From assembly GCF_030269545.1 (NCBI RefSeq), contig NZ_BSTN01000012.1:62001-126000 (forward strand): a stretch of DNA of 64,000 nt, written 5' to 3'. Positions 2,798 to 9,537 of the stretch are shown here, piece by piece (the stretch's first letter is position 1; the number at the start of each line of letters is the position of its first letter). The notes below the pieces were generated by a model, which saw only the letters and a list, made by a program, of their open reading frames with translations, made no database searches and had not been told where the DNA came from. The position numbers and the translations under genes were made by a program. The DNA is from Actinomadura sp. NBRC 104425 (lineage in GTDB: Bacteria; Actinomycetota; Actinomycetes; Streptosporangiales; Streptosporangiaceae).

Positions 2798-3790
2798 ATG
2801 CCGCAGCTGGAAGGGGACCTGTGGGGTGTCCCCGACTACGCCTTCCTGAAGGTCGCCGCGATCCTGGGCGGGCTGTCCGTCGTGGTCGCGGTCGTCGTGC
2901 GCTTCAGGCTGCGGCGCGGCCACCCGCCGACGCGGCCGCTGCACCCGTACGAGGTCGCCTACCTCACCGGCGGCGGACGCCACGTCATCGCGGCGGTGCT
3001 GCTTTCACTGCGTCTGGACGGCGCCATCCGGGCCGACCATCCCGGCGGCGACTTGCACGTCACCGGCGAGCGGCGGGCGGCGAACACCCCGCTGGACGAG
3101 GCCGTGCACGAGGCCGTCCGCAGGCGCGAGGCGCGGACGGTGGCGGCGGTGGCCGCGAACGAGACCGTCAAAGAGGCGATCAAGGCCCTGCGCGACGGCC
3201 TGGTCCCGCAAGGCATGTTCATGGACGAGCGCCACCGCCGTCTGGCCCGGCTCACCGCCGTGCCGCTGTGGCTGGTGCTCGGCGTCAGCATGGCCCGCCT
3301 GGCCTGGTACATGGCCGACAACATGTGGTTCGACGGCCCCACCGTCCCGTTCGGCGGAGTCATGATCGTGCCGCTGGTCATGGTGCTGCTGATCGCGTTC
3401 GCCCTGATGCAGGGCGGTACCGACAAGACCCGCGCCGTCAAGGCCGCCCTGAAGGACACCCGGCAGCGGCACGGCCACCTGGATCCGCGCGTGTTCCCCG
3501 CCTGGTCCACCTACGGAACTCCCGCGGCCGCCATGGGCGTGGCCCTGTTCGGCACGGCGGCGCTGATGAGCATCGATCCGATGTTCTCGCAGGCCGCGGG
3601 GCTGGGACGGCTCATGCAGATGGCGGGGGCGGCGTCGTCGTCGGGCGGCATCGGCTACTCGGGGCCATCGTGCTCGTCCTCCGCGTCGGTCTGCTCGTCC
3701 AGCGGCTGCAGCGGCGGCAGCTCCTGCGGCAGCAGCTGCGGATCGTCCTGCGGCAGCGGCTGCGGCAGCGGTTGCGGCGGCGGCAGCTGA
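2798..3790 (+). CDS. TIGR04222-type membrane protein with Cys/Gly/Ser-rich tail
   Basis: A 330-residue membrane protein of the uncharacterised TIGR04222 type: an N-terminal transmembrane helix (residues ~20-35), the P-Y-E-V-A-Y-L-x-G-G-G domain (residues ~48-140), then hydrophobic segments at ~148-170, ~185-205 and ~240-260. The last ~45 residues are almost only Ser, Gly and Cys with eight cysteines in repeats such as S-S-C-G. The start is supported by a GGAGGG ribosome site before ATG 2798. In other actinomycetes I recall this family beside DUF692 (MNIO) enzymes that modify peptide cysteines; no such enzyme is visible here. The function is unknown; the tail could be a modification substrate, a metal-binding segment or an adhesive surface tail. 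Confidence 0.82.
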   Translation: MPQLEGDLWGVPDYAFLKVAAILGGLSVVVAVVVRFRLRRGHPPTRPLHPYEVAYLTGGGRHVIAAVLLSLRLDGAIRADHPGGDLHVTGERRAANTPLDEAVHEAVRRREARTVAAVAANETVKEAIKALRDGLVPQGMFMDERHRRLARLTAVPLWLVLGVSMARLAWYMADNMWFDGPTVPFGGVMIVPLVMVLLIAFALMQGGTDKTRAVKAALKDTRQRHGHLDPRVFPAWSTYGTPAAAMGVALFGTAALMSIDPMFSQAAGLGRLMQMAGAASSSGGIGYSGPSCSSSASVCSSSGCSGGSSCGSSCGSSCGSGCGSGCGGGS

Positions 3791-3918: not shown

Positions 3919-5097
3919 TCAACCGCGCGACGCTCGCCCGATGAGGTTGCCGGGGTCGTCTAGCCACACCTGCTGCCCGTCCGGGGTCACGGTGAGGCCG
4001 AAGCGTTCGAGGGTGGGGCGCCCCCAGCGGATCCACTGGAAGTAGGCGGCTTCGGCCTCGTCCCACAGACGCCGGTCGCCGGCCTGCTCCACGGCGAACT
4101 CGTCTTTGCCGGGGACGTAGTCCACCGAGGCCCAGGCACCGCCGGGGCCGGTGGCCTCCAGCAGCCACAGGGTGGCCTCGCCCGTAGGTTCGGGGTCGTA
4201 CACCAGGTCGGCGCGCACGCCCGGGACGAGGGCGGACATGGCGGCCTCCAACCCGCCGCCGGGGGTGTGCAAGAGCAACCGAGGGTCCAGGCGTGTGGTG
4301 GACGCCGCGAAGTCTTCGACGGCGGCGACCCACTCGCCCATGGGGGTGGTGCGGTGGCCCTGCTGGGACCGCAGCATCATGAACCCGGCCGACCCGGCGA
4401 GACGTCCGGTCGCCACCCCGTCGGGCAGCACGTCGAGCCGGACCCGGTACCCGTAGGAGAAGTCCGGCATCCAGGGGAACACGAGGGCGCCGCCCGGGCG
4501 GGTCTGCCGCACCCACTGGTAGGGGAATTCGGTGACGCCGCAGGTCACGTGCACGAGATCGAACGTTTCATTTTCCGGGAGGCAGGTGACGGCGTCCCCG
4601 GTGATCAGGGTCGGGCGGGTACCGAGGGCCTCCAGGTTCTCCGCCGCCTGCCGGGCCACGTGTTCGTCGATCTCCACCGACACCACGTTGTGGGCGCCGA
4701 CCCGTTCACTCAGCAGGGCGGCGGTCCATCCCGTTCCCGTTCCGACGTCCAGCGTCCGCTGACCGCCGATCGGGTGCAGCAGTTCCAGGAAGGGCAGCAC
4801 GATGTTCGGCGCCGACAGCGACGAGGTGGGGGCGCGCGGCTCGTTGTCGCCGGTGCTGTCGCCGAACCGGGTGAGGATGGCCGTGCCGGGGTCGTACACC
4901 GCCTGCCACCAGCCGGCGGGATCCTCTTCTAGGTTGATCTTGTGCCGCGGACCGCCGAAGGGCGCGGCCCACGCCACCTGCGGGGCGAACAGATGTCGAG
5001 GAACCGCGTGGAGTGCGGCACGCCACGAGTCGTCCGCCAGGTCGCCACGAGCGACGAGCTGATCAACCAGCGCGTCGATTCGTGCGTCCGCGTCCAT
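3919..5097 (-). CDS. PIMT-like O-methyltransferase, probable RiPP (imiditide-type) maturase
   Basis: A 392-residue S-adenosylmethionine methyltransferase homologous to protein-L-isoaspartate O-methyltransferase. The N-terminal half shows V-P-R-H-x-F-x-P, then the SAM site D-V-G-T-G-T-G-W and the acidic V-E-I-D strand. True PIMTs end near residue 220; here ~170 residues follow, ending with R-W-G-R-P-x-x-x-R-F-G and a W-L-D-D-P (W-x-x-x-P) tail. Such C-terminal extensions are known from PIMT homologues that methylate Asp in lanthipeptides, lasso peptides, graspetides and imiditides, where the ester collapses to aspartimide. The start is the ATG at 5097, which overlaps the TGA of the small upstream gene (TGATG); a GTG at 5100 is the alternative. 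That coupling to a tiny charged peptide is the main reason to call it a peptide maturase rather than a repair enzyme. Confidence 0.85.
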   Translation of the reverse strand: MDADARIDALVDQLVARGDLADDSWRAALHAVPRHLFAPQVAWAAPFGGPRHKINLEEDPAGWWQAVYDPGTAILTRFGDSTGDNEPRAPTSSLSAPNIVLPFLELLHPIGGQRTLDVGTGTGWTAALLSERVGAHNVVSVEIDEHVARQAAENLEALGTRPTLITGDAVTCLPENETFDLVHVTCGVTEFPYQWVRQTRPGGALVFPWMPDFSYGYRVRLDVLPDGVATGRLAGSAGFMMLRSQQGHRTTPMGEWVAAVEDFAASTTRLDPRLLLHTPGGGLEAAMSALVPGVRADLVYDPEPTGEATLWLLEATGPGGAWASVDYVPGKDEFAVEQAGDRRLWDEAEAAYFQWIRWGRPTLERFGLTVTPDGQQVWLDDPGNLIGRASRG

Positions 5098-5216
5098 CAC
5101 TTACCTCGCTTCCCGCTGCCTTTGCCGGGGTCCGCCGGTGGAATCGGACGGCCCTTCTGCTGCCGGTCGCCCTGGATCTCCTTCTGGTCCTTGTCCTCGT
5201 GCTTTCCCACCGTCAT
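5097..5216 (-). CDS. Small charged peptide, candidate RiPP precursor
   Basis: A 39-codon gene whose stop TGA overlaps the methyltransferase start. It begins at ATG 5216 or, better placed behind the GAGGAGG ribosome site, at GTG 5210 (37 residues). The peptide has seven Lys, three Arg and six Asp/Glu, no Cys, no Ser/Thr cluster and a basic C-terminus rich in Gly, Pro and Lys. Asp residues are at 8, 10, 17 and 29 counted from the ATG; the one at 29 precedes Pro and cannot easily form an aspartimide. A linear, highly charged substrate is what is reported for imiditide precursors. It is 44 bp downstream of the next gene on the same strand. No leader cleavage site or protease gene is evident. Confidence 0.6.
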   Translation of the reverse strand: MTVGKHEDKDQKEIQGDRQQKGRPIPPADPGKGSGKRGK

Positions 5217-5260
5217 CCTCCTCGCCGTCGCACTTCTCCGCCACCGGTACCCGGCGGCTT

Positions 5261-5812
5261 TTACCTGCGTTGCGTTCCTGCGCCGTCCACCAGCGCATGC
5301 CACCATTTCAGGACGGTCCTGCGCCGCACATCGCGCGGCGTCATCCACACCCGGGTCTCTCCCGCCCCGACCTCGATGCGCCTGATCGCGTACGCGCCAC
5401 CGACCGTGACGAGCTGGTACCGCACCGGGCCGCACAACGAGCACGTGGATTCCAGCACCCGCGCCCGCTCCGGCCCCCACATCCGGTACCAGTGCATTTT
5501 GAGGGCCCGCACGCGCATCGGATGGACATGGATTCCACCGCACGCCCCCGAGACGCTCCGCTGCCCCTTTCCGGCGTCTCCCCTCCGCACCTGCGGATGA
5601 TCATCCGTCGACAGCCCGCCCATTCTGCGGATATGCGCGATGCAGGCGGCGAGTTGCTCCGGGTCGTCGGCCTCCAGCAGCCGATACAGCGGCGGCGGCA
5701 GATAGGCCCAATAGCTCCCCGTGGCGTTCCCGTACCAGGTGAGCACGCCGGTGCCCGCGAACCTCCTCTGGACGTCCTCCGCCAGCGCGTGGCCCACCGC
5801 GTCGCGACTCAT
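5261..5812 (-). CDS. Hypothetical protein with WYGxxTGxxW motif
   Basis: A 183-residue protein without a recognised function. Residues ~10-65 carry W-Y-G-N-A-T-G-S-Y-W followed by R-L-L-E-A-D, a pattern shared with the proteins at 6760-7137 and 53642-53929. The C-terminal half has a C-x-x-C (C-S-L-C-G) and an alternating hydrophobic pattern suggesting a small beta-rich domain. The start at 5812 overlaps the upstream stop as ATGA, so it is translationally coupled to that gene. All three genes of the coupled run lie 44 bp upstream of the peptide/methyltransferase pair on the same strand. No signal peptide or membrane segment is seen. Confidence 0.65.
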   Translation of the reverse strand: MSRDAVGHALAEDVQRRFAGTGVLTWYGNATGSYWAYLPPPLYRLLEADDPEQLAACIAHIRRMGGLSTDDHPQVRRGDAGKGQRSVSGACGGIHVHPMRVRALKMHWYRMWGPERARVLESTCSLCGPVRYQLVTVGGAYAIRRIEVGAGETRVWMTPRDVRRRTVLKWWHALVDGAGTQRR

Positions 5813-6219
5813 CGCGAGCACACCTTCCACAACGCCCTGTCGATGAGAGCGGCCGTCTCCTCCACATCGGTGACCGACCCGACCGCCCAGCCGCCCTCCC
5901 ATCGGAACCGACCACCGTTGCAGGTGACGACCTTCTCCCGCCCGTCAGGCGCACGCACCGTCAGGCAGCCCCCGCACACCCGAGCCCGACGCCCCCGCTT
6001 GCCCAACGCCCGCGCCAGACGCCGCAGCAGGATCTCGGCGTCACCACGGGCGATGACCTCCAGCGCCGCCCGCAGCGCCTCGAAGCCCGCGGCCCGCACC
6101 TGCGTGACCACCAGTGCGGAAAGCCGCAAGCCATCCGCTCTTTCGGCCGACCACCCGTCGCCGTCATGGGTGATGAGCCACCCGGGAAAGTCCCGCCGCA
6201 GCGAGCCCGCGCCGTTCAC
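5809..6219 (-). CDS. Hypothetical protein, FRW-motif family
   Basis: A 136-residue soluble protein. It ends with F-R-W-x-x-G-x-x-V-G-x-V-x-D-V, a motif repeated at the end of the neighbouring protein (6216-6572), so the two are probably distant relatives. The middle has C-G-G-C-L and a V-T-C-N-G-G strand. The start overlaps the upstream stop (ATGA at 6216-6219) and its own stop overlaps the next start (5809-5812), so the three genes form one coupled unit. I do not recognise a function; genes like this sit near XRE regulators in related actinomycetes, which is also the case here. Confidence 0.65.
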   Translation of the reverse strand: MNGAGSLRRDFPGWLITHDGDGWSAERADGLRLSALVVTQVRAAGFEALRAALEVIARGDAEILLRRLARALGKRGRRARVCGGCLTVRAPDGREKVVTCNGGRFRWEGGWAVGSVTDVEETAALIDRALWKVCSR

Positions 6220-6572
6220 TCGCCGACCTCGCGCAGCACGTACATGACCCGCTCCGCGACCCCCGCCACCTCACCCACCGCCCCGATGCCCTGCCCCCAA
6301 GGCCACCGGAACACCTCGCCGTCACAGACGATGTCGTCGTTGAGCCTGGGCTGCTCCGGGTTGCTCACGCGCAGCGCGACACGACGGTCGGTCCTGCGGA
6401 TGTCTGCCTTCCAGCCACGACTGATCAGCTCGTGGCGCAGCTCCTCAAGGTGGGCCATTGCGTCGTGCACAACCCCCGGCAGCTGTGGCACCTCGGCGAA
6501 CGCGTCCACCAGCCGGGGCGGCATCTCCTCCGCCATCGCCGGTCCAACCGACTGGACGAACTCTGACTCCAC
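6216..6572 (-). CDS. Hypothetical protein, FRW-motif family (first gene of coupled run)
   Basis: A 118-residue soluble protein, predicted helical in the first half, ending in F-R-W-P-W-G-Q-x-I-G-x-V like its downstream neighbour. I chose the GTG at 6572 because it follows a GAGGAGGA ribosome site; the open frame continues to 6665 without a better signal. It is the first gene of the leftward set 6572-3919. Function is unknown. Confidence 0.62.
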   Translation of the reverse strand: MESEFVQSVGPAMAEEMPPRLVDAFAEVPQLPGVVHDAMAHLEELRHELISRGWKADIRRTDRRVALRVSNPEQPRLNDDIVCDGEVFRWPWGQGIGAVGEVAGVAERVMYVLREVGE

Positions 6573-6759
6573 CGGCAGTCCTCCTCTTCCTGATCGCTTG
6601 ATCGGCCCGCCCTGACAGCCGACCCGACGTGATCGACTGCCGCTTCTACTGCGGGCCCGAATCACTCACCCGCGAAGGGCCTGCGTGACACGCAAACCCC
6701 GGTGTTGCTGTCCCAGGCGATATCCCGGGTCCCACTGCCGATACGTCACACGCAGCACC

Positions 6760-8253: not shown

Positions 8254-9501
8254 TCAGTGCGGGATGCCCATGCGCGAGGCCATGCCCCGAAGCTCGCGCG
8301 CCAGTCCAGTGGCCCTGACTCTGCCCAGCAGGTAGGTCACGGTCTCGTGGGCCACCGTGCTGTTGCGCATACGCTGCGGCGCGGCGTCCTCGGCCTGCTT
8401 CAGCGTCATGACCGCCTGGCGCTCCTTGCCGCGCTGATGCGCCAGAGAACGCCCGACCTCAAGATGGAACTGGCATCGCCGGTTAGCAGGTAGCGGCGAC
8501 AGGTCGACGTCGCGCGCCAACCCCACGGCCGTCGGGTAATCCCCATACTCGGCGGCGACCATGACCTGCCACACGCCGACATTGGCGGCGTTGAAAGACA
8601 TCCCGAACGCGTTACCGCCTTGGGAGAGCCGCCCGGCCAGATCCGCGGCCTCAGCCAGATGGTCGTTCGCAGAGTCCATGCGGTACGAGTTTGCGGACGC
8701 GGCGAGGGCGGCCGTCAGGTGGAGCATGCCGTACACCTGGATGCCGACTTCGTCGGTGACGTGGGGTTCCAGCCTGTTCACGGCGTCTTCGCTGATCTTC
8801 AGGATGCGGTCCCACGATCCGGCCCGCGGCGCGGTCATCACCCGCATGAAGTCGGCGACGCCCTGATAGACCGGATCATCCAAATAGCGGGCCGCCTCGG
8901 CCGCCTGCACCGCCGCGAGCCGCGCCAGATCAGAGGACCCGAGTACGGCGCATACGAAGGCCGCAGGGTGCAACACATCAATGAGAAGCCTGAGCGCGTC
9001 CGCGCGCTGCCGCTCGTCAGCCGCGGCAACGAGATAATGAATCTCGTCGATCATGTCGGGCAGAAGGCCGCCCAGCGCGGAGAGGTTCGACTCCTGCCGA
9101 AGCTTGGGCACCGTAGTGACACGGCCGTCGCCCACCTCTACGGTGGTGCGTCCATAAAAGATGTCTTGCAGTTGCGCCAAAGGCCGCGCCCGATCGATGA
9201 CAGCGTCGCCGATCTCGTTGGTCGCCAGCGCCCTCCGCATAGCAGCGATCTTGGCGTGCGGCCCGTTCTCTCCATCGTCGGCGGTCATGTAGGGCTGGCC
9301 GGTCAGATCGGCCTCCGACACCCGCAACGCGGCGGCGACCGCGGAGATGTGCGACCGCCGATCGAGCATCCGATGACCGTGCTCGACCATCGATATGAAC
9401 GAGGTCGACAACCCCGCCTGATCCGCAAGCTGAGACTGCGTCATCCCCCGCCAACTGCGCAGCGCCCGCAGCCGAGCCCCGATGGTGACCTCGTCATGCA
9501 T
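8254..9501 (-). CDS. XRE-family regulator with TPR-like C-terminal region
   Basis: A 415-residue protein with an N-terminal XRE helix-turn-helix (L-R-A-L-R-S-W-R-G-M-T-Q-S-Q-L-A, then S-x-S-F-I-S-M-V-E-x-G) and ~330 residues of alpha-helical, Ala-rich repeats that look like degenerate tetratricopeptide repeats. This architecture is common in actinomycete regulators that may bind peptides. The start ATG 9501 is preferred over GTG 9537 since a GGGAGG stands upstream and the HTH follows directly. It is convergent with the HTH gene ending at 8164. Confidence 0.8.
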   Translation of the reverse strand: MHDEVTIGARLRALRSWRGMTQSQLADQAGLSTSFISMVEHGHRMLDRRSHISAVAAALRVSEADLTGQPYMTADDGENGPHAKIAAMRRALATNEIGDAVIDRARPLAQLQDIFYGRTTVEVGDGRVTTVPKLRQESNLSALGGLLPDMIDEIHYLVAAADERQRADALRLLIDVLHPAAFVCAVLGSSDLARLAAVQAAEAARYLDDPVYQGVADFMRVMTAPRAGSWDRILKISEDAVNRLEPHVTDEVGIQVYGMLHLTAALAASANSYRMDSANDHLAEAADLAGRLSQGGNAFGMSFNAANVGVWQVMVAAEYGDYPTAVGLARDVDLSPLPANRRCQFHLEVGRSLAHQRGKERQAVMTLKQAEDAAPQRMRNSTVAHETVTYLLGRVRATGLARELRGMASRMGIPH

Positions 9502-9537
9502 CCGCCCCGGCACCTCCCGCGCATCGGCGACACCCAC

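Follow-up and report, generated by a model that had tools for sequence, protein, structure and literature searches.

A predicted stand-alone imiditide (type I pamtide) locus in Actinomadura sp. NBRC 104425, with Asn-Gly sites and domain loss among its relatives

The stretch of DNA analyzed here (the window; 64,000 nucleotides of Actinomadura sp. NBRC 104425) carries a short gene for a highly charged peptide, coupled to the gene for a PIMT-homologous methyltransferase (PAMT) with a C-terminal domain, and very probably constitutes a stand-alone imiditide (type I pamtide) locus, the product of which is predicted. The gene pair, its coupling, the selection acting on the peptide, and the family membership of both partners are established here. 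The more interesting matter lies in the relatives of the pair, where Asn-Gly sites and loss of the C-terminal domain of the enzyme are encountered.

The gene pair in the window

Translation confirmed the arrangement described in the first-pass annotation, namely a small peptide ORF whose stop codon overlaps, as TGATG, the start of the gene for an unusually long PIMT homologue, which proves to be a protein of 392 aa with a C-terminal domain. The features of the locus are as follows.

5217..5223, minus strand: Shine-Dalgarno-like GAGGAGG, read from the sequence, six bases 5' of the GTG start
5097..5210, minus strand: gene of the precursor peptide read from the GTG, 37 aa and a stop codon (translation, orthologue starts, dN/dS, profile match of 8.7e-12)
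5097-5216, minus strand: longer peptide ORF from the in-frame ATG at 5216, 39 aa
5166..5168, minus strand: codon of Asp15 (Asp17 from the ATG), the predicted modification site, in G-D-R seven residues before PIPP, a conserved family position
5130..5132, minus strand: codon of Asp27 (Asp29 in the numbering from the ATG), which precedes a Pro and is not predicted to be modified
3922..5097, minus strand: PAMT gene, 392 aa, stop codon at 3919-3921
3922..4362, minus strand: part of the PAMT gene that encodes the C-terminal domain, approximately residues 246-392, from an AlphaFold2 model; absent from relatives lacking this domain
4015..4035, minus strand: WxxxGxP motif, W355-I-R-W-G-R-P361, in which W355, G359, and P361 are invariant or nearly so in the enzyme alignment

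The peptide of 37-39 residues with a good ribosome site that had been claimed is real, and its start can be refined. The GAGGAGG sequence abuts the ATG at 5216 and lies six bases from the GTG at 5210, and orthologous peptides begin with M/V-GKH at the position of this GTG. On account of the spacing and of these orthologue starts, comparison of the sequences makes the GTG the likelier start codon, giving 37 aa. The resulting peptide, MGKHEDKDQKEIQGDRQQKGRPIPPADPGKGSGKRGK, contains 7 Gly, 4 Pro, 4 Asp, and 7 Lys residues, a single Ser and no Cys, and carries a net charge of -2 in residues 1-15 and of +6 in the remainder, a composition and charge layout that fit the type I precursors described in PMC10787088. 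Its Asp residues lie at positions 6, 8, 15, and 27 from the GTG (8, 10, 17, and 29 from the ATG).

Elsewhere in the window, a TIGR04222 membrane protein (2798-3790, plus strand; 133 bits against a cut-off of 43) with a Cys/Ser/Gly-rich tail converges on the methyltransferase gene. Upstream of the pair and on the same strand (5261-6665, minus) are three small overlapping or abutting ORFs, which gave no match in Pfam or NCBIfam.

The methyltransferase

The PCMT domain of Pfam is matched by residues 92-208 of the enzyme at 4.1e-22. The best NCBIfam model is that of a graspetide methyltransferase, at 255 bits below its 380-bit cut-off, and the four models for repair PIMTs among the matches listed score far below theirs (79/188, 64/282, 66/359, and 58/159 bits, score/cut-off). 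The W-x-x-x-P tail noted at first pass is present as W378LDDP and, in addition, W355IRWGRP fits the WxxxGxP motif that PMC13001092 gives for the PIMTs of lasso peptides, graspetides, and imiditides.

An AlphaFold2 model built from 40 aligned relatives has a mean pLDDT of 93.7 and supersedes an earlier, mediocre one from seven sequences (pLDDT 69.9); it predicts a PAMT-like fold of two domains. The modelled C-terminal part runs in the order beta, alpha, four beta, alpha plus hairpin, the same order of secondary structure as is described for PAMTs in PMC10787088. The top PDB matches of the model in Foldseek are both chains of 1DL5, with 381-383 alignment columns; since the rmsd is near 8 despite this coverage, the two domains would appear to be set differently in the window enzyme and in 1DL5.

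Conservation of the pair in close relatives

The enzyme finds a match at E 1e-100 in 26 of the 341 genomes of the bacterial family. The nearest enzymes are those of Actinomadura litoris (genome G246; 72% identity), G326 (71%), and A. atramentaria (G229; 67% + 71%, the match being split in two pieces by an in-frame insertion). An orthologous peptide gene lies directly 5' of all three, although the G326 copy runs out of the family frame after PIPP. Absence of the peptide beside homologous methyltransferases had been named in advance as a finding that would refute the assignment; the nearest three enzymes (67-72%) all have the peptide, and distant homologues without a recognized peptide do exist (31 of 105; see below).

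The purifying selection anticipated for the peptide codons was borne out. In the three pairs formed by the window, A. litoris, and A. atramentaria, dN/dS of the peptide is 0.26, 0.24, and 0.25, and pN/pS of the shifted frames in the same pairs is 0.63, 1.30, 1.31, 1.51, 1.62, and 2.10. The window peptide is therefore under purifying selection in its own frame, and the shifted frames are not consistently so.

When 14 kb of the window was compared with the flanks of the relatives (4 kb per side in A. litoris and A. atramentaria and 1.5 kb in G326), no credible match was obtained outside the two genes; conservation is thus confined to the pair. An HTH regulator (window 8254-9537) was considered as a conserved neighbor, having relatives in nine other loci, but regulators of this kind are common in actinomycetes and it was judged unspecific. 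The other large clusters of neighbors are the enzymes themselves or frames antisense to them.

Several of the related loci have peculiarities of their own. In A. litoris (L083:4001-6389), tandem PAMT genes, 71% and 45% identical to that of the window, follow one peptide gene. The catalytic part of the A. atramentaria enzyme (L101, between 4001 and 5572) contains long in-frame low-complexity repeats resembling GTAPH. In genome G264 (L056), a peptide of 21 aa keeps only the start and the PIPP-ADP tail in resemblance to the window peptide, and its enzyme (at 1590) is ~46% identical.

The PIPP-type peptide family and its enzymes

A search with the single peptide sequence gave matches at E up to 1 in 321 of 341 genomes, which were taken as nearly all due to chance, and besides the genome of origin only G229, G246, G264, and G326 were used from it. 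A profile of 11 peptides gave 80 matches at E 1e-4 in 62 of the 341 genomes. Across the 70 loci examined (71 of the 80 matches, nine being left out), a PAMT match lies directly downstream in 68, starting between -80 and +400 nt from the peptide stop. The exceptions are L213 and L222, and near L213 there is a PAMT match with two internal stop codons.

Approached from the other side, 105 distinct enzymes were chosen by enzyme sequence alone, and the presence of a peptide was decided by a composition rule that 12 of 1420 positions drawn at random from these contigs also satisfied. A peptide accompanies 60 of these enzymes (10 of them PIPP-type), a further 11 adjoin an ATP-grasp-like sequence and three a UvrA-like gene, and the remaining 31 have neither. 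At L031, L032, L036, L085, and L088, PAMT genes lie directly 3' of a gene that by eye resembles the final part of UvrA, and no peptide was recognized there. PIPP-type peptides are found beside several clades of enzyme, requiring 11 changes on the tree against a mean of 49.7 when shuffled, which indicates that the two partners have not always been inherited together. A search of plasmids gave matches in 297 of 72,556 records, all at <60% identity.

These data bear on whether the enzyme might instead be a house-keeping isoaspartate repair methyltransferase, in which case the small ORF would be an upstream frame that has a regulatory function or is due to chance. The catalytic domain of the enzyme is indeed of the PIMT type, but the repair models score far below their cut-offs, purifying selection falls on the peptide codons and not consistently on shifted frames, peptides of this family, followed by an enzyme gene, turn up in 62 of 341 genomes, and the genome of origin alone has 14 enzyme matches at E 1e-20. 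We consider repair a very improbable function for the window enzyme.

Other PAMT loci of the same genome

The genome of Actinomadura sp. NBRC 104425 contains 29 matches to the window enzyme at E 0.001, of which 14 reach E 1e-20; among 65 genomes of the genus, this one included, the number at the latter threshold ranges from 0 to 17, with at least one match in 60. By eye, six type I-like peptide loci can be recognized (on C12, that of the window, on C36, C6, and C5, and at the ends of C29 and C70), together with four loci whose peptides have two CxxC motifs (three on C18 and one on C2), and many of these ten peptides start with M/V-G-K/R-H. Several contigs break inside PAMT genes, such that copies may have been collapsed.

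Maturases were sought on two scales, the ATP-grasp RiPP maturase model being run genome-wide and the models of other RiPP maturase families on ten ORFs neighboring the pair. The former gave three matches, on C32, C38, and C43, and none on the window contig C12; the latter gave none among the ten ORFs. Two PAMTs of the genome adjoin the ATP-grasp maturases on C38 and C32, and this, along with the graspetide methyltransferase being the best NCBIfam model, is what might be expected if the window enzyme acted second in the maturation of a graspetide or another RiPP, on a peptide first cross-linked by a primary maturase encoded elsewhere. The lack of maturase matches on C12 and in the neighboring ORFs stands against such a role, as do a peptide with no Cys and one Ser and the grouping of the window enzyme with peptide-associated enzymes, and we give it next to no credence.

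The proposed pathway

By analogy with characterized relatives, from which binding, methylation, and aspartimide formation are carried over, a stand-alone imiditide pathway would begin with ribosomal synthesis of a linear, highly charged precursor of 37 residues, with an acidic N-terminal part and a basic tail of Gly, Lys, and Arg. The co-translated PAMT would bind this precursor, mostly via its C-terminal domain, and methylate one Asp side chain using SAM. Ring closure of the methyl ester with the following backbone amide would then yield the aspartimide, which would hydrolyze in part to isoaspartate. The imiditide class and two-gene layout suggested at first pass agree with the relatives found and with the imiditide and type I pamtide literature (PMC13001092, PMC10787088), and the same sources and relatives bear out the remark that such a peptide is easily missed in annotation. 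Counted against the assignment are a site Asp that is not invariant (it is Asn, Glu, or absent in parts of the family), an Arg after Asp15 where Gly predominates, the spread of PIPP peptides over several enzyme clades, a best NCBIfam model that is named for graspetides and scored below its cut-off, and the 31 of 105 enzymes that have no recognized partner.

The predicted site of modification

The first-pass annotation had proposed Asp8, Asp10, or Asp17 (from the ATG) as the modified residue and had regarded Asp29, which precedes Pro, as unlikely. Conservation within the family singles out Asp17, that is, Asp15 from the GTG, as the likely one. The peptide strings were aligned with the site in a register of seven residues before PIPP, or six where W-[DPE]-[RK] precedes PIPP. 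Among 67 strings (L199 being counted twice, under two start codons), the residue at this position is Asp in 53, a count that includes the initially misregistered L202 (52 without it), Asn in 12, always as Asn-Gly, and neither in two, namely L207, which has Glu-Gly, and the short G264 peptide (L056), which has nothing there. The residue that follows the site Asp (52 strings) is Gly in 32, Ser in eight, Arg in five, Ala in four, Thr in two, and Glu in one, and is never Pro. The Arg of the window peptide is thus a minority choice; the nearest orthologues have Gly.

Within the same class, the enzyme might instead methylate Asp27, in which case the product would halt at a stable methyl ester, because the Pro that follows has no amide hydrogen. 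This site was suggested by the first 11 aligned peptides, in which the Asp after PIPP was the sole invariant Asp, and the Ala-Asp-Pro sequence is shared with A. atramentaria and with the short G264 peptide, of which it contains the only Asp. It was dropped once 67 strings were available: downstream of PIPP, 12 of them have Asp-Pro alone and three have no Asp at all (one of these, G326, being frame-broken), in keeping with the earlier doubt about Asp29, and 65 have Asp or Asn-Gly at the upstream site. The G264 peptide, moreover, has lost its first half, and its enzyme is only ~46% identical to that of the window. We regard methylation of Asp27 as unlikely. With Asp15 favored over Asp27-Pro by conservation across the 67 strings, the comparison predicts sharply, for one sub-family, which residue is modified.

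Asn-Gly sites and loss of the C-terminal domain

Outside the window, some enzymes that follow peptides of this family have lost all or most of the C-terminal domain.

L205:713-1465: PAMT without C-terminal domain, Asn-Gly peptide
L212:629-1360: PAMT without C-terminal domain, Asn-Gly peptide
L214:1077-1829: PAMT without C-terminal domain, Asn-Gly peptide
L215:1163-1921: PAMT without C-terminal domain, Asn-Gly peptide
L207:623-1444: PAMT of 274 aa with most of the C-terminal domain gone, Glu-Gly peptide

The first four, from four genomes, are 244-253 aa long and end where the C-terminal domain would start. A further short enzyme, L237 in G264, accompanies a peptide whose site is occupied by neither Asp nor Asn and whose upstream part is unlike the family. 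In a tree of the catalytic part, the five short enzymes listed fall in two separate places. A site Asp is found opposite none of these five (none of six with L237) and in 49 of the 58 strings opposite full-length enzymes. Of these 58 cases, 55 were read directly and three were judged by alignments reaching residues 382-391, the reading frame of the A. atramentaria enzyme extends beyond the locus examined, and neither L222 nor the minus-strand peptide of L193 is included. The corresponding Fisher values (2.8e-4, or 6.7e-5 with L237) overstate the evidence, because near-identical peptides of related species are counted separately and, by the tree, the domain was lost only twice. Eight other Asn-Gly peptides sit with full-length enzymes, so that Asn alone does not entail loss of the domain. 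Purifying selection acts on both members of the Asn-Gly pairs (dN/dS of 0.08-0.23 for the enzyme and 0.02-0.24 for the peptide, with some dS near saturation).

Asn-Gly is the dipeptide that forms a succinimide most quickly. The sequences suggest a branch of imiditides that starts from spontaneously deamidating Asn-Gly, and we put forward, as a tentative reading that is possible rather than probable, that PIPP-type imiditides need a residue competent to form an aspartimide rather than Asp as such, and that in the Asn-Gly branch lacking the C-terminal domain (four genomes), the peptide ages spontaneously while the enzyme recycles isoaspartate. On that reading, the C-terminal domain lost in two lineages may be the one that recognizes the substrate, and a repair-like PIMT would serve as an enzyme of peptide maturation. 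Some RiPP PIMTs also accept isoAsp (PMC13001092). None of the literature passages searched names Asn among pamtide core residues, and a literature search listed no further paper on the subject. The published survey of PAMTs left out proteins of <300 aa (PMC10787088) and would therefore have excluded the short enzymes. Natural variants such as these, in both site and enzyme, could reveal what the C-terminal domain does and whether Asp is needed.

Comparison with known systems

The closest likeness is to the imiditides, or type I pamtides, exemplified by NmaA-NmaM of Nonomuraea maritima and SpaA-SpaM of Streptomyces sparsogenes. With these, the window shares the layout of two genes, a short charged precursor rich in Gly, Pro, Asp, and Lys that has a conserved Asp, a PAMT with a C-terminal domain and the WxxxGxP motif, and the lack of another maturase nearby (for the window, in the ten ORFs and, for the ATP-grasp model, on C12). 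An N. maritima locus (L131) was itself recovered, with an enzyme that is homologous to that of the window (42% identity) and contains DEDGD, preceded by the peptide MGRHAEDPESQKVVPFDPKKRQDTDSADHNETPSGKHSDHGKGGKK, in which Asp-His occurs twice. NmaM is reported to have a DEDGD loop, and in NmaA the Asp that is modified lies in Asp-His (PMC13001092); given both features, we infer that L131 is the nma locus. The window peptide differs from NmaA in belonging to the PIPP-motif sub-family and in its predicted site, G-D-R as opposed to Asp-His.

In the cysimiditides, or type II pamtides (FcaA, TceA, NalA), the PAMT is the sole modifying enzyme, as is proposed for the window, but their precursors have two CxxCxGxG-like motifs and the window peptide has no Cys. 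Four cysimiditide-like peptides recognized by eye in the same genome share the (M/V)GKH start with it. The graspimiditides, which combine an ATP-grasp enzyme with a PAMT, have a methyltransferase homologous to that of the window, and two loci of this appearance occur in the same genome; their clusters, like those of graspetides, include an ATP-grasp maturase, for which the window contig gave no match. The repair PIMTs (3LBF of Escherichia coli and 1DL5 of Thermotoga) share the catalytic fold at 20-26% identity, and 1DL5 also has a C-terminal extension. Unlike them, the window enzyme is coupled to a dedicated peptide gene and falls below the cut-offs of the repair models. The pamtide class numbers >1000 predicted members, of which two type I examples have been expressed in E. 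coli (PMC13001092), and the window pair adds one more member to this already known class of imiditides and type I pamtides.
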